Shown piece after piece: positions 3,664-61,172 of a DNA stretch of 64,000 nucleotides (positions within the stretch are counted from its first letter, which is position 1; the number at the start of each line of letters is the position of its first letter). A program made the translations under genes and the position numbers. The notes beneath the pieces are model-generated. The model was not told the DNA's origin, searched no databases, and saw only the letters and a program-made list of their open reading frames with translations. Origin of the DNA: Thiolapillus brandeum (GTDB lineage: Bacteria > Pseudomonadota > Gammaproteobacteria > Chromatiales > Chromatiaceae); NCBI RefSeq assembly GCF_000828615.1, contig NZ_AP012273.1, positions 620,001 through 684,000 of the forward strand. Reading direction: 5' to 3'.

Positions 3664-3693
3664 CCGTTGAAAAAACCGTTTTTCTACAGCCTG
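3664..3693. repeat. Solo terminal hairpin of the five-hairpin repeat
   Basis: The sequence GGCCGTTGAAAAAA...TTTTTCTACAGCC closely matches the first hairpin (terminal part) of the 160-bp repeats at 5907-6066 and 12642-12801. The rest of the element is absent, so it is probably a decayed or solo end. Confidence 0.5.
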
Positions 3694-5906: not shown

Positions 5907-6066
5907 AAGGCTGTTGAAAAATACCATTTTTCGGCAGCCTGATTGCCGCACAAAGATGTGCGGCCATTTTCAATGGCCATAAGTCATTGAAAATGGAGGA
6001 AAGACAAAATCGCATTTTTGTCTTTCCGAGTTGAAAAAGCCCAAGGAAGGGCTTTTTCAACATCCT
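5907..6066 (-). repeat. 160-bp five-hairpin MITE-like repeat, copy A
   Basis: Ends are related inverted repeats (AAGGCTGTTGAAAAA and CTTTTTCAACATCCT). Five hairpins follow each other: 5909-5939, 5945-5964, 5965-5995 (11-bp stem), 5998-6027 (about 12-bp stem) and 6030-6061 (13-bp stem). A nearly identical copy in opposite orientation lies at 12642-12801 inside a transposase gene. There is no coding capacity. Here it sits in the gap after the TMTC-like gene and may act as a terminator. Confidence 0.8.
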
Positions 6067-6162
6067 GTTAAAGTCATTTGGTTCGGGTATTTGCTTTCGC
6101 CTTGCTGCCCGCTCTTTTGAGCAAGCTGTGATGGCCGTGGTGATGTTGAGGAAACGTAGATC

Positions 6163-7578
6163 ATGATACCGGTTATTCTTTCTGGTGGATCCGGAACCCG
6201 GCTGTGGCCGGTTTCCAGGAAGACGCATCCCAAGCAGTTCTGGCCGCTGGTATCGGATCTGAGTCTGCTGCAAATGACTTGCCAGCGCCTGCAAGGCTAT
6301 GCCGGCATTCAGCCGCCAATCGTTGTCTGCAATTCGGAACATCGTTTTTTTGTGGCCCATCAGCTTGAGGAGATGGGGCAGCAGGATGCCGCTATTTTAC
6401 TGGAACCCGTCGGACGAAATACCGCACCTGCTATAGCGGTGGCTGCTTTGCATGCCCGGCGTAATGGGAATGATCCAGTGATGCTGGTGTTGCCATCAGA
6501 TCACCTGATCAGTGATCCGGACAGTTTCTATCGTAGCCTCGAAGAGGCCGAGGGCCTGTCAGCAGAAGGGTATCTGGTCACTTTCGGTGTTGTTCCCAAC
6601 CGTGTGGAAACCGGTTATGGCTATATCAAGGCCGGATCAAAGCTCAGCGAGGATATGGATGCCTGCTCTATCGATCGGTTTGTGGAGAAACCTGCCCTGG
6701 CTGAAGCAACGAGCTTCGTAGAGAGCGGAGCATATTACTGGAACAGTGGGATGTTCATGTTCCGGGCTTCCCGGTTTCTCGATGAACTGGAAAGGTTTTC
6801 TCCGGACATATTTTCCGGAGCAAAGGCTGCCTACGACGGAAGCACCCGGGATCTGGATTTCATTCGTCTGGATGAAGCCCCTTTTGCCGGCATTCCTGGC
6901 AACTCGGTGGACTATGCCGTAATGGAGCATACAGACAAGGGGGTGGTCGTACCGCTTGATGCGGGATGGAGTGATGTCGGTTCCTGGTCTTCTCTTTGGG
7001 AATTGGGAGAAAAGGATGGTTTCGGCAATGTGACCCGTGGGGATGTTCTGGCTCTGGATTCGGAAAACTGTTATTTGCACTCTGATGGTCGGCTGCTTGC
7101 TGTTATCGGTGTCCATGACCTGGTCGTTGTGGATACCCCCGATGTGGTGATGATTGCCCAACGTGATTTTTCCCAGCGAGTGGGAGAACTGGTGAGCGAA
7201 CTGGATGATGTGCAAAGACAGGAAACCGATGTTCATACCATAGTGCATCGCCCTTGGGGTTGCTTCCAGGGCATAGACCGGGATGAGCGGTACCGGGTGA
7301 AGCGGATTTCCGTCAGGCCCGGGGCCAGATTGTCTCTGCAAATGCATCACCATCGTGCTGAACACTGGATAGTAGTGAAAGGAACGGCAAGAGTAACCTG
7401 TGGTGACAAGACATTTCTGCTTTCGGAGAATGAGTCAACCTATATTCCCGTGGGAGAAAAGCACTGCCTGGAAAATCCGGGAATTGTTCCCCTGGACCTT
7501 ATAGAGATTCAGTCGGGAAGCTATCTGGGAGAGGATGATATCGTGCGTTTTGAAGATCTCTATGGCAGAGAGACCTAG
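6163..7578 (+). CDS. manC: Mannose-1-phosphate guanylyltransferase / mannose-6-phosphate isomerase
   Basis: A 471-residue bifunctional enzyme of the ManC/CpsB/AlgA family, full length. The N-terminal nucleotidyltransferase domain has SGGSGTRLWPVSR, the PKQF lysine, LPSDHLI and RFVEKP. The C-terminal type II phosphomannose isomerase cupin has a His-rich motif LQMHHHRAEHWIVVKGTARV. It isomerises fructose-6-P to mannose-6-P and makes GDP-mannose from mannose-1-P and GTP in the cytosol. A phosphomannomutase is not in the window. GAGGA lies upstream of ATG 6163. GDP-mannose could feed exopolysaccharide, LPS or the neighbouring TMTC-like glycosyltransferase through a polyprenyl-P-mannose. Confidence 0.93.
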   Translation: MIPVILSGGSGTRLWPVSRKTHPKQFWPLVSDLSLLQMTCQRLQGYAGIQPPIVVCNSEHRFFVAHQLEEMGQQDAAILLEPVGRNTAPAIAVAALHARRNGNDPVMLVLPSDHLISDPDSFYRSLEEAEGLSAEGYLVTFGVVPNRVETGYGYIKAGSKLSEDMDACSIDRFVEKPALAEATSFVESGAYYWNSGMFMFRASRFLDELERFSPDIFSGAKAAYDGSTRDLDFIRLDEAPFAGIPGNSVDYAVMEHTDKGVVVPLDAGWSDVGSWSSLWELGEKDGFGNVTRGDVLALDSENCYLHSDGRLLAVIGVHDLVVVDTPDVVMIAQRDFSQRVGELVSELDDVQRQETDVHTIVHRPWGCFQGIDRDERYRVKRISVRPGARLSLQMHHHRAEHWIVVKGTARVTCGDKTFLLSENESTYIPVGEKHCLENPGIVPLDLIEIQSGSYLGEDDIVRFEDLYGRET

Positions 7579-7882
7579 CAACAACTGTTAAGGAAGCTTG
7601 ATTTGCTCTGCACGAAGCCGCTTGGGTGCAAAGCATTCGCCAGCCAGGGCGGAGTTCATCGGGAATGCTCCAATGGTTCCCATTCGATGGTTTTGGCATA
7701 TACAGGAGTTCGACCTGGGAATATGAACAGGAATAATGGCTCCCGACTTCCTGCCTGCATGGTCCATGCGTTGCTCTACTTCCTGTTTCCATAGGCTTGT
7801 CCCGGAAGTTTTGTTGCGGGTTCATGAATGGACCAGGGAAACAATGCCGGTAAAATTCCTTATATGTAAAAGATCGGGCTGA
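7579..7882. other. Intergenic stretch with nothing recognised
   Basis: About 300 bases between manC and the small membrane-protein gene. No convincing ORF, RNA structure, terminator or repeat was found. Confidence 0.5.
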
Positions 7883-8221
7883 ATGATGCGGATCCTGGGC
7901 GAGGAAATTGATCCAAAGGCGAATATACGGGCAGCCTATCTGGCCCACCGCGTGCTTTGGGGGGTGTTGCTGATTTCCATTTTGCTGGATTTCTTTACCA
8001 CGCTGCAGTTCATGCTCAGGGATGGTGTTCAACACGAAGGAAATGCGGTGGTGCGTTGGTTGGTTCAGGTTTTGGGTGTCGTGCCTGGAATACTTGTGGG
8101 CAAACTGTTGCAGCTGATCGCTGTGCTCGGACTTACGGCCCTGTCATACAGGATGGCACCCGCTGTAGTCATCGTCGTAGTGTTTTCCAATTGCCTGGCG
8201 GTGCTGATGAACCTGTATTGA
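7883..8221 (+). CDS. Small inner-membrane protein
   Basis: A 112-residue protein with three or four hydrophobic segments: VLWGVLLISILLDFFTTLQFML, LVQVLGVVPGILVGKLLQLIAVLGL and MAPAVVIVVVFSNCLAVLMNLY. The pattern of a membrane helix carrying DFFTT, then a short linker and paired helices, recalls DUF5658-type proteins, but this is only an impression. The function is unknown. A second ATG directly follows the first. It stands alone between manC and the AhpD-like gene. Confidence 0.6.
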   Translation: MMRILGEEIDPKANIRAAYLAHRVLWGVLLISILLDFFTTLQFMLRDGVQHEGNAVVRWLVQVLGVVPGILVGKLLQLIAVLGLTALSYRMAPAVVIVVVFSNCLAVLMNLY

Positions 8222-8476
8222 TGATGTGCCTGGCCGAAACAGCTGGTTCTTCGCTTTGACGTCAACAGGCCAGGGATGCAGACAAGATCACTGCGCCAGG
8301 TTGTGGCCTTTGCCAAAAGCTCAGCCATTGCCTGCGTGCCAATGGGTGCTGCATTGGTTGGGTATGTGAAATAATCAGGTTGGCATCCGTTGATCCGCAT
8401 CACCCATTCCCGTATCACCATCTGTGGAAAGAGGCGGGTGGATTGCTGGTGAATTTCAATCTCCGGGAGATCCGAT

Positions 8477-9031
8477 ATGCGCATTTCTGTTTTGGGTTCA
8501 CAGCCTCATCTGGCCGACGTATTCAAGACCTTCCCTGAAACCGTGCGTCCCTTGCTGGAATACCATGACCTGCTGCTACGTGGGCCATCCCCCCTGAGTG
8601 TTGCAGAGCGTGAGCTGATTGCAGCCTATGTTTCCGGCCTCAACGCCTGTGATTTTTGTTTTGGTGCCCACCAGATTATTGCAGAGGCAGCCGGGGTGGA
8701 TGAGGTGGTATTCCAACAACTGTTGGAGGATGTCGATAGTGCCCCCGTAGATGATGTGCTCAAGCCCATTCTCCACTATGTAAAAACCCTGACGCTGTCA
8801 CCGGCGAAAGTGACCGATGCCCAGGCCCAGGCCATCCGTGATGCGGGTTGGGATGATCGCGCCATTCATGATGCAGTGGCCGTGTGCGCCCTGTTCAACC
8901 TCATGAACCGCCTGGTGGAAGGCATGGGTGTGGAAAGCAGTGAAGCGGTACGTGCCAGCCAAAGGCAACGCAATGGAAAGATCACTGATACTCAGTACCG
9001 GGATTTTGGAAGGATGCTGGGTATCGAATGA
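8477..9031 (+). CDS. AhpD-like peroxidase-related protein (carboxymuconolactone decarboxylase fold)
   Basis: A 184-residue all-helical protein with the AhpD-type redox motif CDFCFGAH (Cys-x-x-Cys-x3-His) in the segment ERELIAAYVSGLNACDFCFGAHQIIAEAAG. The Cys pair plus His is the active site of alkylhydroperoxidase D-like proteins, which act in peroxide defence or as thiol oxidoreductases. The length fits the 'peroxidase-related enzyme' subfamily. ATG 8477 is kept. The gene converges on the beta-helix gene at 9076. The natural reductant or substrate cannot be told from sequence. Confidence 0.85.
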   Translation: MRISVLGSQPHLADVFKTFPETVRPLLEYHDLLLRGPSPLSVAERELIAAYVSGLNACDFCFGAHQIIAEAAGVDEVVFQQLLEDVDSAPVDDVLKPILHYVKTLTLSPAKVTDAQAQAIRDAGWDDRAIHDAVAVCALFNLMNRLVEGMGVESSEAVRASQRQRNGKITDTQYRDFGRMLGIE

Positions 9032-9075
9032 TTCACGGGTTTCCGGTGGATTCAGATAGCCGCAGTTTCGCCCTC

Positions 9076-10530
9076 TTATTCGAATCCGTCCTTCATAATG
9101 GTTTGGCCGCTGCCGGCATCAGTAACCTGCCAGGGGCCGAGATCGGGTGGATCCAGCCGCAGACTGCCGGCCCTGTCCACTGGCACATCGCTCAGAAGAT
9201 TGCCGGTTTCCAGGAAGGGGGCGCTGCTGGTGGGCCTGAAACCCGTGTCTGCCACCATGCCGCTGACCGGGAAGTTTTCGTACCAGCTGGTACTGAAGTT
9301 GGTGTTGTGCTGGTCCGTGGCTGAAGGCTCGAACTGCTCGAAATAGCCGCCGGAGAAGTAGTTGCCGGAAAAATTGTTGTGTCCTTCGGTGGAATCGTCC
9401 TGCTGCACCAGCAATACGTTGTTGTTTGCGCTCACACTGGTGCCTGAGCGTGAGATGCCCAGGAAAACGTTGTTTTGCACGGTATTGCCGGTGGAGTCAT
9501 AAACGAACTGCAGTACATGGTCCCAGGTGCTTTCGCCGATAAACAGATTATGGGCGATGAGATTGTTGCTCGAACCCAGGTTGGGGTTGTCGGTCTCCTG
9601 CCAGAAACTGGTGCCATGGAGCTGATACAAGCCAACGATATTGTTACGGAACACCGAGTTTCTTACCGAGGTCAGATTGGGGCCCTGGGCCTGGCCATCA
9701 TGGAAGTAGTTGTTCTCCACCAGGATGAATTCGGATACGCCCTGACCCAGACCGTTTCTGGCGCTGCCGTCGCACAAGGGATCATCAAAGGCGATCCCCT
9801 CGTCCTCGCAGGTACTCAGGGGATCAGCGTTGATCTGGAAATCCGAGTTGGAGTTGTCATACACCTCGTTGTTTCTGGCGATCATCCAGTCACTGCCATT
9901 GGACAGATAGATGCCATGCCCGTCGCCGTCGCCAGCGCCGTGGGCGACGTTATTGTCCACTACTATCCAGTCCGAACCGCCTGAAAAGATGGGGTCCCGG
10001 TACTGGTCTCTGACGTGGTTGTTGAGGATGGCGACGCCTTTCTGGTGTTCATTGGTGTAATACCCGCCAACCGCGCGTACGCCGTAGTCACCACCGACCA
10101 GAGTAAAGCCATCTACGGCGACATAGTCTGCGTACTCAAGGTTGAAACAGGTGGCACGGCCACTGCTGCAACAGTTCACCGTAACACCAGGATCGGCCTT
10201 CAGCACAATGGGCGCGTCATAGGTTCCGGAGGAATCGCTGTCCAGGGCCCAGCAACCGGCATAGTCTCCCGGATGAAAGCGGATTTCCTCGCCAGCGGTG
10301 ACCTGATTGAAGGCGCTGGTTACAGACATGGGGTTGCCCGCCGTACCGTCCCCGTTGCCAGTGGGACTGACATGGAGGATGTGCGCAGGGGAATAGCCGG
10401 GGTCGGTGTAATAGCGGTTGAAACGTTCTGGTGTATCAAAGAAGCGCTCTCCCCGATTGGGCACACTGACGGCCCAACTGGCACTGGTGGTGGATAATAA
10501 AATAAGTAAAATCAGTGTGTTGTATATCAT
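9076..10530 (-). CDS. Secreted right-handed beta-helix protein
   Basis: A 484-residue exported protein. It has a signal peptide (MIYNTLILLILLSTTSASWA), then a pectate-lyase-like parallel beta-helix with regularly spaced Asn/Val turns (ILNNHV, VVDNNV, IARNNEVYDN, LVENNYFHDG, VFRNNIVG, LIAHNLFIG, VQNNVFLG, FSGNYFSGG). Several Cys pairs (VNCCSSGRATC, CEDEG...LCDG) suggest disulfides. It ends in MKDGFE, like the DGFE-type tails seen at the ends of some gammaproteobacterial exported proteins. Such folds bind or cleave polysaccharides, but no catalytic triad is assigned here. It is probably periplasmic or extracellular and may act on exopolysaccharide. Confidence 0.8.
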   Translation of the reverse strand: MIYNTLILLILLSTTSASWAVSVPNRGERFFDTPERFNRYYTDPGYSPAHILHVSPTGNGDGTAGNPMSVTSAFNQVTAGEEIRFHPGDYAGCWALDSDSSGTYDAPIVLKADPGVTVNCCSSGRATCFNLEYADYVAVDGFTLVGGDYGVRAVGGYYTNEHQKGVAILNNHVRDQYRDPIFSGGSDWIVVDNNVAHGAGDGDGHGIYLSNGSDWMIARNNEVYDNSNSDFQINADPLSTCEDEGIAFDDPLCDGSARNGLGQGVSEFILVENNYFHDGQAQGPNLTSVRNSVFRNNIVGLYQLHGTSFWQETDNPNLGSSNNLIAHNLFIGESTWDHVLQFVYDSTGNTVQNNVFLGISRSGTSVSANNNVLLVQQDDSTEGHNNFSGNYFSGGYFEQFEPSATDQHNTNFSTSWYENFPVSGMVADTGFRPTSSAPFLETGNLLSDVPVDRAGSLRLDPPDLGPWQVTDAGSGQTIMKDGFE

Positions 10531-10754
10531 GGTCGGGGTTACTGCCTGGAAGTTGGTGAATGGCCGGAATACGGTTGTCGGGGTTTGGACAACAGAACTT
10601 GCAGTTTATTCCATCAGGTACACAAAGATGAGGACGCGGTCACGCTGCCAGACTTTTTTGTGTGCACCGCAGCATAAACGGTGATACCCGGCTTATGCGC
10701 CTCATTTCAGGCGTCGGGAGAGGGTAAGACTACGGGGCATGTCGGTATTTTCCT

Positions 10755-10928
10755 ACAAGCAGCCAGGAGTTTTCCCATGGCTTCAGGGCATCCGCCGGCT
10801 TAGGATACAACCATTGCCACGGTGTTGTTCAAGGACGAGCAGGTAGACAGGAGGTTTACCTGGAATGGATTTCCGGTTTCGTGGTGATGGCTAAGCCCCG
10901 GACGCAAGGATGCGCCCGGGGTTTTTTT
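10755..10928 (+). ncRNA. Candidate CsrB/RsmZ-family CsrA-sponge sRNA
   Basis: No ORF is credible here, but at least five hairpins present GGA in or near their loops. H1 is 10761-10782 (AGCCA stem, GGAG in loop). H2 is 10827-10840 (loop AAGGAC). H3 is 10841-10861 (8-bp stem, loop AGGAG). H4 is 10862-10874 (loop TGGAT). H5 is 10896-10921 (loop AAGGAT), which is also the terminator. Clustered GGA-loop hairpins ending in an intrinsic terminator are the hallmark of CsrB, CsrC, RsmX, RsmY and RsmZ RNAs that titrate CsrA/RsmA. The 5' end is a guess, and no GacA/UvrY activator site was identified. It may instead be an unrelated structured RNA. Confidence 0.45.
10896..10928 (+). terminator. Strong rho-independent terminator
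   Basis: A GC-rich stem CCCCGG-A-CGC / GCG-C-CCGGGG closes an AAGGAT loop and is followed by seven T. No protein gene ends upstream on this strand, which implies a non-coding transcript. Confidence 0.85.
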
Positions 10929-10951
10929 CTGGGTTCCATATCCCAATTTGA

Positions 10952-11050
10952 AGCCAGTATTGTGGATTCAGTAAATTCCATTGATCGGGCCACGGTACAT
11001 TGCCAAAATGGCAGGAGTTGCGACGAAGTGGAGAATCACCAATACTGGCT
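10952..11050. repeat. 99-bp inverted-repeat mini-element
   Basis: The ends AGCCAGTATTG (10952-10962) and CCAATACTGGCT (11039-11050) are inverted repeats, with extra imperfect pairing inward (GGATTC against GAATC). There is no coding capacity. It may be a small MITE or the remains of an IS whose middle was lost. Confidence 0.45.
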
Positions 11051-11303
11051 GTCAGGTAGAAGTGTATTGATCGGTTCCCCTCTGCACCCGGACTACCAAC
11101 AGACACAAAAGCCTATCTCAAGCGTGTTAAGGATGTTTATGTCCGGATGCCTATCGGGTGAGTTCGCAGTTGATCGAACGTGTGCGCAGCGGCACATGGA
11201 ACCCCGACGAAGATGAGAATGACAATGAACACCGCAATGCACTCGCCGCACACGGCTACTGGCAAGCTTATCAGTCCGTACGCAAAAGCATCGACAAAGC
11301 GTA

Positions 11304-11486
11304 ACCGGCGCGTTGCAGTTACGCGGCGACAATGGTCTGGTGTTTACTTCCAGCCGCTATACGGCCACAGTCAAGGCATATGGGCTGACCCAAGAGTTCA
11401 TCATGCCGTGCAGCCCGGAACAGAACGGCATGATCGAACGGTTCATCCGTACCCTGAAGGAAGAATGTGTATGGCATTATCACTTT
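11304..11486 (+). pseudogene. IS3-family (IS2-like) transposase fragment, upstream part
   Basis: This encodes the middle and end of an integrase core: RGDNGLVFTSSRYTAT with the second Asp, then CSPEQNGMIERFIRTLKEEC with the catalytic Glu. The N-terminal part is missing. The frame runs to WHYHF and is then broken by the left end of the IS3-like copy 1. The rest of the gene appears 6.7 kb away at 18175-18299. Upstream sequence (11085-11300) contains fragments of another frameshifted ORF (for example SSQLIERVRSGTWNPDEDEN) that I do not recognise. Confidence 0.7.
11449..11486 (+). repeat. 38-bp direct repeat, left copy
   Basis: Identical to 18176-18213. It lies at the left junction where the IS2-like transposase gene is split. 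It is far longer than a normal IS3 target duplication. Confidence 0.85.
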
Positions 11487-11563
11487 CCCCCTGTGTCAGC
11501 ATAGTTGTCCGCTCACCTTGGTGAGCAATATTTCCTAATCAGGGAGCGGAAGGTGAAGCTACA

Positions 11564-12070
11564 GTGGCAAGATATAGCCAGGAATTCAAAGAGAAGATCG
11601 TTCAGAAGATGATGCCGCCCAATGCGCAGAGTATCGCCCAGATTCATCGAGATACCGGAGTCTCTGAACCCACGCTGTATAATTGGCGAAATCAGTATAA
11701 AAACGCAGGTAGAGCCGTGCCGGCAGATCCATCCAATCCGGAAAACTGGTCAGCTGAGGACAAGTTGGCCGTTGTTATAGAAACAGCCTGCTTGAATGAG
11801 CAGGCATTGTCTGAGTATTGTCGCAAGAAAGGACTTTATGTCGAACAGATCAATCGCTGGAAGGAACTGGCCCTGGGTGGCTATGAGGCGCGAGGGCGTT
11901 TGTCAGCCAATGAACGTCGAGAGCTTAAGCAGACGAAAAAACAGAAGCGCCAGATAGAAAAGGAGCTTAAGCGTAAAGAGAAAGCGTTGGCGGAGACAGC
12001 AGCACTTTTGGTGCTGTCAAAAAAGTGCAATGCCATCTGGGGGAAAAAGAGGACGATTGATTTCCTCTGA
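11564..12070 (+). CDS. IS3-like element OrfA, copy 1
   Basis: A 168-residue protein with an N-terminal helix-turn-helix (YSQEFKEKIVQKMMPP...IHRDTGVSEPTLYNWRNQY). A second HTH-like segment and a Lys/Arg-rich coiled coil follow (RRELKQTKKQKRQIEKELKRKEKALAETAALL). It starts at GTG 11564, 72 bases from the IS end. It is nearly identical to copy 2 (16572-17078); the C-terminus reads IWGKKRTIDFL here against IWGEKRTIDFL there. It should bind the IS ends. OrfB starts within its tail in the +1 frame. Confidence 0.85.
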   Translation: MARYSQEFKEKIVQKMMPPNAQSIAQIHRDTGVSEPTLYNWRNQYKNAGRAVPADPSNPENWSAEDKLAVVIETACLNEQALSEYCRKKGLYVEQINRWKELALGGYEARGRLSANERRELKQTKKQKRQIEKELKRKEKALAETAALLVLSKKCNAIWGKKRTIDFL

Positions 12071-12641
12071 AAACCGTCAGATGGCGATGAAAGTGATTGA
12101 AGAGGCAATGATTGCGGGAGCACGTCAAGTCCAAGCGTGCCAGCTCATGGGGATTGATGCACGCACACTACGGCGTTGGCAAAAACAGCTACTTGCTTCT
12201 CAGGAAGTGCAGGATCAACGCAAAACAGCGGCGGCTGATCGAGTGCCTGCCAACAAGCTCAGTGAAACAGAGAAAGAGCGGATTATTGAGGTGTGTAATC
12301 TTCCTGAATACAAGAGCTTACCTCCCTCTCAGATCGTTCCTATGCTCGCAGATAAAGGGGAATATATTGCCTCAGAATCCAGCTTTTATTGCATCCTGAG
12401 CGCGGTTAACCAGGTCAATCGCAGAGGCCGTGCCCAGAGGCCAAAGAACAGCATGAAGCCGAAAGGCTACAACGCAACAGGTCCCAATCAGATCTGGAGT
12501 TGGGACATTACCTATTTGGCCTCAACCGTTCGTGGTACTTTTTACTACCTGTACCTGATCGAAGATATTTTCAGTCGCAAGATCGTGGGCTGGGAAATTC
12601 ATGAAAGAGAAAGTGCCGAGCATGCCAGTCAACTCATTAGC
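12030..12641 (+). pseudogene. IS3-like element OrfB, truncated by the five-hairpin repeat
   Basis: It contains the OrfB HTH (MGIDARTLRRWQKQLL) and the first catalytic Asp (IWSWDITYL), and ends after EHASQLI. The reading frame then runs into the inserted repeat and stops at about 12818. The DNG and E parts of the DDE triad, present in copy 2, are missing, so this copy cannot be active. Confidence 0.9.
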
Positions 12642-12801
12642 AGGGTGTTGAAAAAGTCCATCCATGGGCTTTTTCAACTCGAAAAGACAAAAATGCGATT
12701 TTGTCTTTCCTCCATTTTCAATGACTTATGGTCATTGAAAATGGCCGCACATCCTTGTGCGGCAATCAGGCTGCCGAAAAATGGTGTTTTTCAACAGCCT
12801 T
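12642..12801 (+). repeat. 160-bp five-hairpin MITE-like repeat, copy B
   Basis: Nearly identical (a handful of mismatches) to copy A at 5907-6066 in the opposite orientation, with the same five hairpins and related ends (AGGGTGTTGAAAAAG and TTTTTCAACAGCCTT). It sits in the orfB gene that is uninterrupted in copy 2, so it moved as a unit. The right flank is the start of an IS110 element, so no target duplication can be read. Confidence 0.85.
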
Positions 12802-12819
12802 GTATGTCCAAAAAGTAGT

Positions 12820-12960
12820 ATGTTGAGGCTCGGGAGAGGCAGATCGACACAGCCTTGGTGAAACACACCGTTAGCAGCACGGATCGCCTCTCCCTCTTCT
12901 GACCATAACCCGAACAGTTGCCTGGGCTAACAGCCCGTATCCTCACAAGAATGGGAGATC
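12820..12960 (+). ncRNA. Candidate IS110 bridge (seek) RNA region
   Basis: This is the non-coding left end of the IS110 element upstream of its transposase ATG (12966). It contains a strong stem, GGGAGAGGC pairing with GCCTCTCCC, with GATC/GATC continuing inward and a loop of about 40 bases. IS110-group elements carry a structured guide RNA at this location. The 3' non-coding end of this IS is only about 26 bases, consistent with a 5' RNA. Loop-to-target matches were not verified. Confidence 0.4.
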
Positions 12961-12965
12961 AGAAT

Positions 12966-13915
<950 letters not shown>

Positions 13916-17078: not shown

Positions 17079-18144
17079 AAACCGTCAGATGGCGATGAAA
17101 CTGATTGAAGAGGCAATGATTGCGGGAGCACGTCAAGTCCAAGCGTGCCAGCTCATGGGGATTGATGCACGCACACTACGGCGTTGGCAAAAACAGCTAC
17201 TTGCTTCTCAGGAAGTGCGGGATCAACGCAAAACAGCGGCGGCTGATCGAGTGCCTGCCAACAAGCTCAGTGAAACAGAGAAAGAGCGGATTATTGAGGT
17301 GTGTAATCTTCCTGAATACAAGAGCTTACCTCCCTCTCAGATCGTTCCTATGCTCGCAGATAAAGGGGAATATATTGCCTCAGAATCCAGCTTTTATCGC
17401 ATCCTGAGCGCGGTTAACCAGGTCAATCGCAGAGGCCGTGCCCAGAGGCCAAAGAACAGCATGAAGCCGAAAGGCTACAACGCAACAGGTCCCAATCAGA
17501 TCTGGAGTTGGGACATTACCTATTTGGCCTCAACCGTTCGTGGTACTTTTTACTACCTGTACCTGATCGAAGATATTTTCAGTCGCAAGATCGTGGGCTG
17601 GGAAATTCATGAAAGAGAAAGTGCCGAGCATGCCAGTCAACTCATTAGGAAGACCTGCCTGGCCGAGAACATCCATCAGGAAGGATTGGTACTGCATTCG
17701 GATAACGGCAGTCCCATGAAGGGAGCAACCATGTTGGCGACATTGCAAAAGTTGGGTGTGGTACCGTCCTTTAGCCGCCCTTCCGTCAGTGATGACAACC
17801 CTTTTTCTGAAAGCTTATTTCGCACGTTGAAGTACACACCCTCCTTTCCCAATCAGCCATTTGGAGGACTGGATGCCGCAAGGGAATGGGTACACAGCTT
17901 CGTTGAATGGTACAACCACCAGCATCGTCATAGTGCGATTCGCTACGTGACACCCAATCAACGGCACAGTGGCGAGGAGATGACCATTCTGGAGCAAAGA
18001 AAGGAGGTCTACGGTGCAGCGAAAGAAAAGAATCCTGCTCGTTGGTCTGGTCAGATCAGGAACTGGAACAGGATTGAAAACGTCTGGTTGAATCCGCCGA
18101 AAGACGTGCGGGCTGAAGCGCAAAAACTGGCGTTGGTCGCTTGA
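17038..18144 (+). CDS. IS3-like element OrfB, DDE transposase
   Basis: A 368-residue transposase with an N-terminal HTH (MGIDARTLRRWQKQLL), a spacer domain and an rve-type RNase H-fold core. The acidic triad is visible: IWSWDITYL (Asp), LHSDNGSPMKG (Asp) and DDNPFSESLFRTLKY (Glu). The Asp-to-Glu spacing is about 35 residues, as in IS3 enzymes. The C-terminus (WYNHQHRHSAIRYVTPNQRH) is typical. It catalyses IS excision and integration. The protein looks complete and potentially active, unlike copy 1. The ATG at 17038 lies inside orfA; translation coupling or recoding is likely. Confidence 0.9.
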   Translation: MPSGGKRGRLISSENRQMAMKLIEEAMIAGARQVQACQLMGIDARTLRRWQKQLLASQEVRDQRKTAAADRVPANKLSETEKERIIEVCNLPEYKSLPPSQIVPMLADKGEYIASESSFYRILSAVNQVNRRGRAQRPKNSMKPKGYNATGPNQIWSWDITYLASTVRGTFYYLYLIEDIFSRKIVGWEIHERESAEHASQLIRKTCLAENIHQEGLVLHSDNGSPMKGATMLATLQKLGVVPSFSRPSVSDDNPFSESLFRTLKYTPSFPNQPFGGLDAAREWVHSFVEWYNHQHRHSAIRYVTPNQRHSGEEMTILEQRKEVYGAAKEKNPARWSGQIRNWNRIENVWLNPPKDVRAEAQKLALVA

Positions 18145-61140: not shown

Positions 61141-61172
61141 AGCAGGCCGTTGAAAAAAGTCATGTTTTCAGG
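61141..61172. repeat. Partial end of the five-hairpin repeat
   Basis: AGGCCGTTGAAAAAAGTCATGTTTTCAG resembles the terminal hairpin of the 160-bp repeat, most like the solo copy at 3664. It is degenerate, and the rest of the element is absent. Confidence 0.4.

Follow-up and report, generated by a model that had tools for sequence, protein, structure and literature searches.

A mobile five-hairpin element of Thiolapillus brandeum with a conserved fold and possible CsrA/RsmA-binding loops

How does a non-coding repeat of about 160 bp, paired almost throughout into five consecutive hairpins, move about a bacterial genome, and what preserves its fold? The question is raised by a 64,000-nucleotide stretch of Thiolapillus brandeum (contig NZ_AP012273.1, positions 620,001 to 684,000; C1:620001-684000 in our numbering of the three contigs of the 3.15 Mb host genome), hereafter the window, in which two copies of the repeat lie in inverted orientation. 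The element is, with very little doubt, a miniature inverted-repeat transposable element (MITE), that is, a short non-autonomous DNA transposon. Its fold recurs across the Pseudomonadota, and the loops of its second and fifth hairpins carry GGA motifs that match the target of CsrA/RsmA. We put at about even the chance that the element is mobile, conserved in its structure and equipped with hairpins that bind CsrA/RsmA, possibly as a decoy RNA.

Copy A was located at 5907..6067 on the plus strand and copy B at 12641..12801 on the minus strand, by sequence match and alignment of the host copies. The first-pass annotation had described a near-identical inverted pair at 5907-6066 and 12642-12801; the pair was borne out, at 95% identity, with a right boundary one base further out, the terminal CCTG ending at 6067 in copy A and at 12641 in copy B. 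The predicted fold places the hairpins of copy A at 5908-5940 (H1), 5945-5964 (H2), 5965-5995 (H3), 5998-6027 (H4) and 6030-6061 (H5). Folded as RNA, copy A reached -86.3 kcal/mol (z -12.2) and, as single-stranded DNA (ssDNA), -57 (z -11.6); none of 200 shuffled sequences equalled either value. Both foldings returned the five hairpins proposed earlier, with a longest stem of 15 bp rather than 13 bp.

The mobility of the element was shown by its ends and by an empty site. Oriented host copies read YTAR-CAGGCTGTTGAAAAA...TTTTTCAACATCCTG-YTAR, and the four bases outside each end, taken at fixed positions, were identical in 19 of 40 host copies (permutation mean 4.5; none of 10,000 permutations reached 19). 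The sequence (C/T/A)TAR stood on both sides of 20 copies; in 19 of them the two sides were direct repeats, asymmetric cases such as TTAG/TTAG and CTAA/CTAA among them. In several further copies, examined by eye, the duplication lay a few bases off or one end had changed. To the latter belongs copy A: TTAA follows on its right (6068-6071) and TTCC lies on its left, so the left target duplication is no longer intact. The right end of copy B is followed by CTAA (12637-12640, minus strand). A clean insertion with a CTAA target duplication was found in another host copy, L027 (C1:886420), where the element lies within the same orfB gene that adjoins copy B, with both sides of the gene present. The 400-bp flanks of L027 match the window at 18044-17645 (99.5%) and 17648-17249 (99%), overlapping by exactly 4 bp; read from the letters, CTAA occurs once at the empty site (17645..17648; TTAG on the plus strand, CTAA on the minus strand), which lies within an uninterrupted insertion sequence (IS) copy at 17249-18044, and twice in L027. 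That the repeat moved as a unit, as had been claimed from copy B, is supported, with L027 as the clean case. Within L027 (1000-2271), the element and its duplication (161 + 4 = 165 bp) add 55 codons in the frame of the interrupted transposase, which stays open without a stop over 423 aa (PF00665, PF13683).

A resident IS with matching terminal repeats was also found. A search of the host genome with PF01609 gave five matches, three of which adjoin ends matching the element; both ends were found at C1:2970510 and C2:391, and one at C3:6178. The transposase, of 361 aa, belongs to the IS5 family (NF033581, 272 bits against a cut-off of 140; PF05598, PF01609), and a protein search of the host recovered full-length copies at 100% and 98%, a copy on C3 (residues 1-280), and a fragment on C2. 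In loci L074 and L075 the IS is about 1.3 kb long with both ends present (CAGGGTGTTGAAAAACCCC and CAGGCCGTTGAAAATATCCC); the flanking bases are TTAA in the first locus and TTAG in the second. The element, which encodes no transposase, thus has terminal repeats in common with an autonomous IS of its host. Against a partner shared by all lineages, 18 of 19 other element-bearing genomes had no relative of the host transposase (E<=1e-5), the remaining one (G325) giving a weak match at 34% identity; in other lineages, therefore, the transposase is a different one or has been lost.

That only two copies exist, named earlier as a refuting condition, does not hold, for the host genome has many more: at least 40 near-full copies at 92-100% identity (BLAST with copy A; 40 of 109 candidates scored). 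A covariance-model search, with 150 of 1549 candidates scored, returned at least 110 rows at E<=1e-3 and at least 56 full-length rows above 110 bits. A short form of 95-97 bp accounted for at least eight host rows at E<=1e-11. This deletion form recurs (L077, L085, L086, L137-L143), keeping H1 and H5, and some examples have target duplications (TTAA/TTAA in L140, TTAT/TTAT in L142). The smallest version of the element is possibly one of about 44 bp that has a single hairpin, both ends and TTAT on each side (L090, 312-361). In five host copies (L010, L018, L028, L035 and L040), GTTGC/GCAAC replaces CAGG/CCTG, as if a variant terminus exists. A distant blastn search of plasmid and phage collections gave no match to copy A.

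The same body occurs with three classes of terminal repeat, CAGGCTGTTGAAAAA, GGAAGCTCTGAATAA-like and GAGGGTGTCGCAAAA-like. The second end class was examined in genome G158, where 280 sites matched at <=2 mismatches and the reversed pattern matched none; among the first of these sites no IS partner was found. The four outside bases were identical in 31 of the 34 measurable copies (40 fetched, the second end not being found in six; the search pattern fixed AA at the ends), against a permutation mean of 13.6, with none of 10,000 permutations reaching the observed value. The duplications were TTAA (16), CTAA (12), ATAA (2) and AAAA (1), so the kind of target is the same as in the host though the terminal repeats differ, one other lineage having been measured. 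Mobility is close to certain, having been shown for G158 as well as for the host lineage.

Conservation of the fold was followed outwards from the host. Within the genus, 13 of 14 sampled genomes gave a BLAST match, mostly at 75-87% identity where full length, and an alignment of 28 copies showed two-sided change at 22 of the 52 predicted pairs. A covariance model built from this alignment (hits counted at E<=1e-4, the host's own genome included) found the element in 56 of 274 genomes of a class sample (44 of 222 genera and, by our own count, 37 family labels) and in 40 of 249 genomes of a phylum sample (18 of 132 genera); in both scans the best 10-11 candidates per genome were scored under stricter filters, and copy numbers are minima. 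Across 46 model-fitted rows, two-sided change was observed at 50 of 52 pairs and 95.8% of cells were paired; doubly changed cells numbered 511 (shuffles, 126.5), and pairing fell to 37-48% when the partners were displaced by one to three columns. This alignment is fitted to the structure and the shuffles ignore relatedness. Folding without the model gave exactly five hairpins in 38 of 41 diverse elements and in 101 of 130 in a larger set, in agreement with the model-fitted rows. The 5' arms of H4 illustrate the divergence: GGAAAGACAAAA in the host, GGAAGCGGGAAA in L044, GCAAAGCAAAAA in L122 and GCCATCGGAAAA in L120; in every case the 3' arm matches its 5' partner. A conserved five-hairpin fold with compensatory change is close to certain, and we consider it very probable that the fold is kept by selection on a single-stranded form. 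At the gathering threshold, Rfam, Csr/Rsm models included, had no match in the window; in eight loci the only match above threshold was a signal recognition particle (SRP) RNA in the flank of L045, outside the element.

Most of the H2 and H5 loops are of the form (A)NGGAN, closed by a C-G pair and lying on one strand; in most elements H2 reads CA-NGGA-NG within the stem and H5 reads CA(N)GGANG. Among the 41 diverse elements, GGA was present in the H2 loop of 39 and, by reading, in the H5 loop of 38 (absent in L059, L068 and L093); a recount of H5 by a stem rule gave 37, with partly different misses. Among the 101 elements with exactly five hairpins, the remaining 29 of the 130 being left out, GGA was found in H2 of 98 and H5 of 94, as compared to two in H1, two in H3 and one in H4. 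Counted on the GGA strand, CA(N)GGANG occurred exactly twice in 98 of the 130 elements, three times in 3, once in 25 and not at all in 4; it was absent from the opposite strand in 106, and base shuffles averaged 0.08. The loop-closing C-G of H5 was the only invariant pair of the 52 (46 of 46 rows).

Within the host, variation spares the same bases. Copy A has GGA in H5 (6030..6061, plus strand; GUUGAAAAAGCCC-AAGGAA-GGGCUUUUUCAAC), on a stem that is terminator-like in both directions in the host lineage, and copy B has it in both H2 (AAGGAU) and H5 (AUGGAU). Over 36 host copies of equal length, the first N of H5 was A in 9, T in 14, G in 10 and C in 3, and the second A in 29 and T in 7, while no other base of the motif changed in more than one copy; for H2 the variants numbered three and four copies at the two N positions and at most one at each remaining motif base. 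Among the five loops listed for host copies, the N of H5 was the freest base, and GGA was nearly invariant.

The loops persist where the stems do not. Elements from other classes have different stems, yet GGA stands in H2 and H5 of L258, L261, L262, L263, L265 and L266 (H2/H5 loops CCAAGGATGG/CCATGGATGG in L258, GCAGGGATGC/CCATGGATGG in L261, CCACGGATGG/CCAAGGATGG in L266). Two motifs were counted in six of nine such loci, a count favoured by choosing the strand with more motifs and for which L260 was taken at a wrong position and L264 in the wrong orientation; L259 has one motif, and by eye L264 has lost GGA from H2. Long forms of 205-207 bp in G158 carry four GGA motifs (three in L290), so that the several GGA hairpin loops typical of Csr/Rsm RNAs are mostly two per element and four in these forms. 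L285 consists of H1 and four GGA hairpins, without H3 or H4, and lies between two CTAA sequences. L165, a long form unrelated to these, carries an additional CCAGGGATGG hairpin and has two motifs under the strict pattern.

These loops resemble published targets of CsrA/RsmA. As far as the available portions of the sources go, in vitro selection (SELEX) gave the site RUACARGGAUGU with GGA in hairpin loops (PMC3856055), the motif is given as ANGGAN and the loop of RsmZ hairpin 2 as AAGGAU (PMC3791407), and a printed CsrA/RsmA site reads CANGGANG (PMC6849547); a paper on a small RNA (sRNA) derived from IS200 proposes CsrA among the proteins worth testing. The following course of events can be envisaged. 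IS5-type transposases that duplicate YTAR would move the element as a MITE; read-through transcription across a copy would bring the GGA strand into RNA; CsrA/RsmA dimers could bind the H2 and H5 loops of that RNA; and the copies might jointly form a pool of decoys, or supply nearby transcripts with CsrA sites. Transcription, CsrA binding and an effect for element or host are what we infer. Taken further, and rather tentatively, the lineages may make up a superfamily of mobile CsrA/RsmA decoys with two to four CsrA loops, spread over Gammaproteobacteria and other Pseudomonadota classes and acting as a dispersed CsrA sink; perhaps different terminal repeats were acquired while the RNA was kept, with different transposase partners.

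The test of co-occurrence with csrA could have failed and did not. The host genome has two csrA matches. In the phylum sample, 39 of the 40 genomes that bear the element have csrA, G519 with a genome 74% complete being the one without it, as compared to 119 of 209 without a hit. G415 has nine CsrA matches and at least 11 model hits.

Several observations weigh against CsrA binding. The csrA association is confounded by phylogeny. Copy A itself has no GGA in H2 (5945..5964, plus strand), its loop having mutated to AAAGAU where the majority of copies have AAGGAU with C-G closing, although no other of the 36 host copies of that length has lost it. For H2 the count is circular in the case of L144-L223 (80 listed of 114 pattern-fetched stretches), as the pattern used to fetch them fixes CANGGANG in H2; there H5 alone is independent. 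The loops of H3 and H4 are conserved too, and CsrA offers no explanation for these. At a relaxed E, RsmV matched L056 (E 0.024) and L053 below threshold, among eight loci searched with Rfam, as did TD-2 on L041. Over long divergence, G-T exceeded A-C in stems (74 as compared to 36; by elements, 24 as compared to 7), in rows found by a covariance model that rewards G-U; this excess is only a hint for RNA. Young copies had no wobble bias, with 10 G-T as compared to 17 A-C events in the host (36 of 40 copies) and 2 as compared to 2 in G158 (19 copies of one length). Finally, with genes called by our own ORF scoring rather than a standard caller, there was no consistent orientation bias to genes in the host, in G158, or in a named set of 89 loci (one of 90 matches, clipped by the locus end, being left out). 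Gene ends facing the H1 side and the H5 side numbered 22 and 33 in the host (51 of 60 loci; eight had no called neighbour and one overlapped a gene), 47 and 39 in the named set (74 of 89), and 25 and 16 in G158 (35 of 40; two overlapped a called gene and three had no neighbour); host adjacency within 30 bp leaned against sense transcripts, 11 to 21. Because of the missing orientation bias, the unexplained H3 and H4 loops, and the lack of wobble in young copies, the loops make CsrA/RsmA binding only about as probable as its absence.

The element may instead be a selfish IS5-type MITE and nothing besides, its hairpins kept by template switching between arms and its loops ancestral relics without RNA function. 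Compensatory change in a DNA palindrome can indeed come from arm-to-arm copying, and mobility in the host and in G158, the empty site, the unbiased orientation, and the accumulation of both kinds of wobble mismatch in young copies would all be expected. We nevertheless consider this account rather unlikely: arm copying preserves no loops, yet GGA persists in H2 and H5 where the stems differ, remains constant within the host while the N positions vary, and has been multiplied with its hairpins in long forms. An element of the repetitive extragenic palindromic (REP), IS608 or attC kind, with the folded strand as the substrate of transposition, would accommodate the strong ssDNA folding of copy A and, equally with RNA, the strand asymmetry of loops and G-T pairs. 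The first-pass annotation had raised a REP-like or single-strand-transposed element, and this was not supported. Such elements transpose as single strands without target duplication, whereas exact 4-bp duplications were found in the host and in G158; together with terminal repeats resembling those of the resident IS5-family IS, these point to double-strand transposition by a DDE transposase. L285, lacking H3 and H4, and the single-hairpin L090 nonetheless have duplicated flanks. We regard this alternative as very improbable.

A further alternative places the function at gene ends, the element being tolerated or favoured behind genes where its stems would terminate transcripts or shield them, the GGA loops being incidental. 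Called genes were overlapped by 1 of 60 host elements, 1 of 89 in the named set and 2 of 40 in G158 (criteria differed slightly). Within 30 bp of the 60 host loci there were 32 gene 3' ends and one gene start, with a gene end no more than 2 bp away in 14; the 3' ends also exceeded starts in the named set (33 as compared to 13). By reading, the H5 stem of the host lineage has a T-run on both strands (AAAAAGCCC...GGGCTTTTT), so the terminator role proposed earlier is possible there; GGAAGCTCTGA-ended lineages have no such run. The YTAR target would by itself favour intergenic DNA and TAA or TAG stops, and in the 14 host loci with a gene end within 2 bp the duplication contains the gene's TAA or TAG; in G158 the excess was slight (11 ends, 8 starts), and a terminator leaves five ordered hairpins and GGA loops unexplained. 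A role at gene ends alone therefore appears unlikely to us, and a MITE whose conserved loops may bind CsrA/RsmA is the reading we carry forward.

Other features of the window bear on the history of its copies. Copy B had been taken for an insertion within orfB; it is not a clean one. On one side lies a truncated orfB (12030..12640, plus strand), cut off at copy B; it is the second ORF of an insertion sequence whose transposase is of the integrase-core type. On the other side, adjoining the left end of copy B, lies an IS110-type element (12802..13726, plus strand; PF01548, PF02371). Since its right flank and that of L027 are 98.75% identical, copy B looks like a rearranged descendant of the L027 insertion. 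In two species of the genus, an IS110-type element meets the left end of the five-hairpin element at the identical base (GGACATAC/AAGGCTGTTG); the second junction is L062 1661-1796 in G013, with 92% identity along the 137 bp that precede the end of the contig. The shared junction suggests that the IS110-type element may target this MITE, as some IS target REPs. Two solo hairpins reported earlier, at 3664..3693 (plus strand, probably an H1-like remnant) and 61141..61172 (plus strand; TAGCAGGCCGTTGAAAAA, then degenerate, with one mismatch to the end pattern), read by eye as probable single-end remnants, and neither appeared in the covariance-model list at E<=1e-3 (150 of 1549 candidates scored). 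A tRNA scan found no tRNA in the window.

Bacterial MITEs are usually regarded as lineage-specific IS debris, and Csr/Rsm decoy RNAs are single chromosomal sRNA genes. A literature search by title and start of abstract, covering the best-ranked matches and few subscription journals, gave nothing on this element or on a MITE with CsrA sites. Among transposons the element is a MITE, a known kind; what is new is an RNA-like fold as the body in many families, with regulator-type loops. Its closest relation in the host is the IS5-family IS of L074 and L075, with which it shares YTAR duplications and similar ends (CAGGGTGTTGAAAAA in the IS, CAGGCTGTTGAAAAA in the element); unlike it, the IS has a full transposase gene, and by eye the hairpins were not seen inside the IS ends. 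Like prokaryotic MITEs, for which stable stem-loop transcripts have been described, it is short, non-coding, multi-copy and intergenic, with terminal repeats and target duplications in common with an IS (PMC10969869). A body whose fold is conserved across many families while the ends differ, and conserved GGA loops, set it apart; neither appears in the available part of that source. With REP elements and bacterial interspersed mosaic elements (BIMEs), served by REP-associated tyrosine transposases (RAYTs), it has in common an intergenic position, palindromes and high copy number, and insertion sequences insert at REP/BIME elements as well (PMC1525189, as far as available). Unlike them, it has 4-bp target duplications, IS5-type ends, a length of about 160 bp and five ordered hairpins.

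The comparison with Csr/Rsm decoy RNAs (CsrB, RsmX/Y/Z, RsmV) concerns the body of the element. In the available portions of PMC3856055 and PMC3791407 these have several hairpins with GGA in C-G-closed (A)NGGAN loops, and hairpin 2 of RsmZ has the same AAGGAU loop as the element (PMC3791407); unlike them, the element is mobile, has dozens of copies and lies below Rfam thresholds. The conserved part here is the body and not the ends, the fold is shared by dozens of families, and the loops agree with the target site of a global regulator. Even without CsrA binding, a structured family with two-sided change at nearly all pairs and no Rfam family above threshold marks a gap in the catalogues of RNAs and transposons. 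If CsrA does bind, mobile elements would constitute a dispersed, copy-number-variable input to the Csr/Rsm network.

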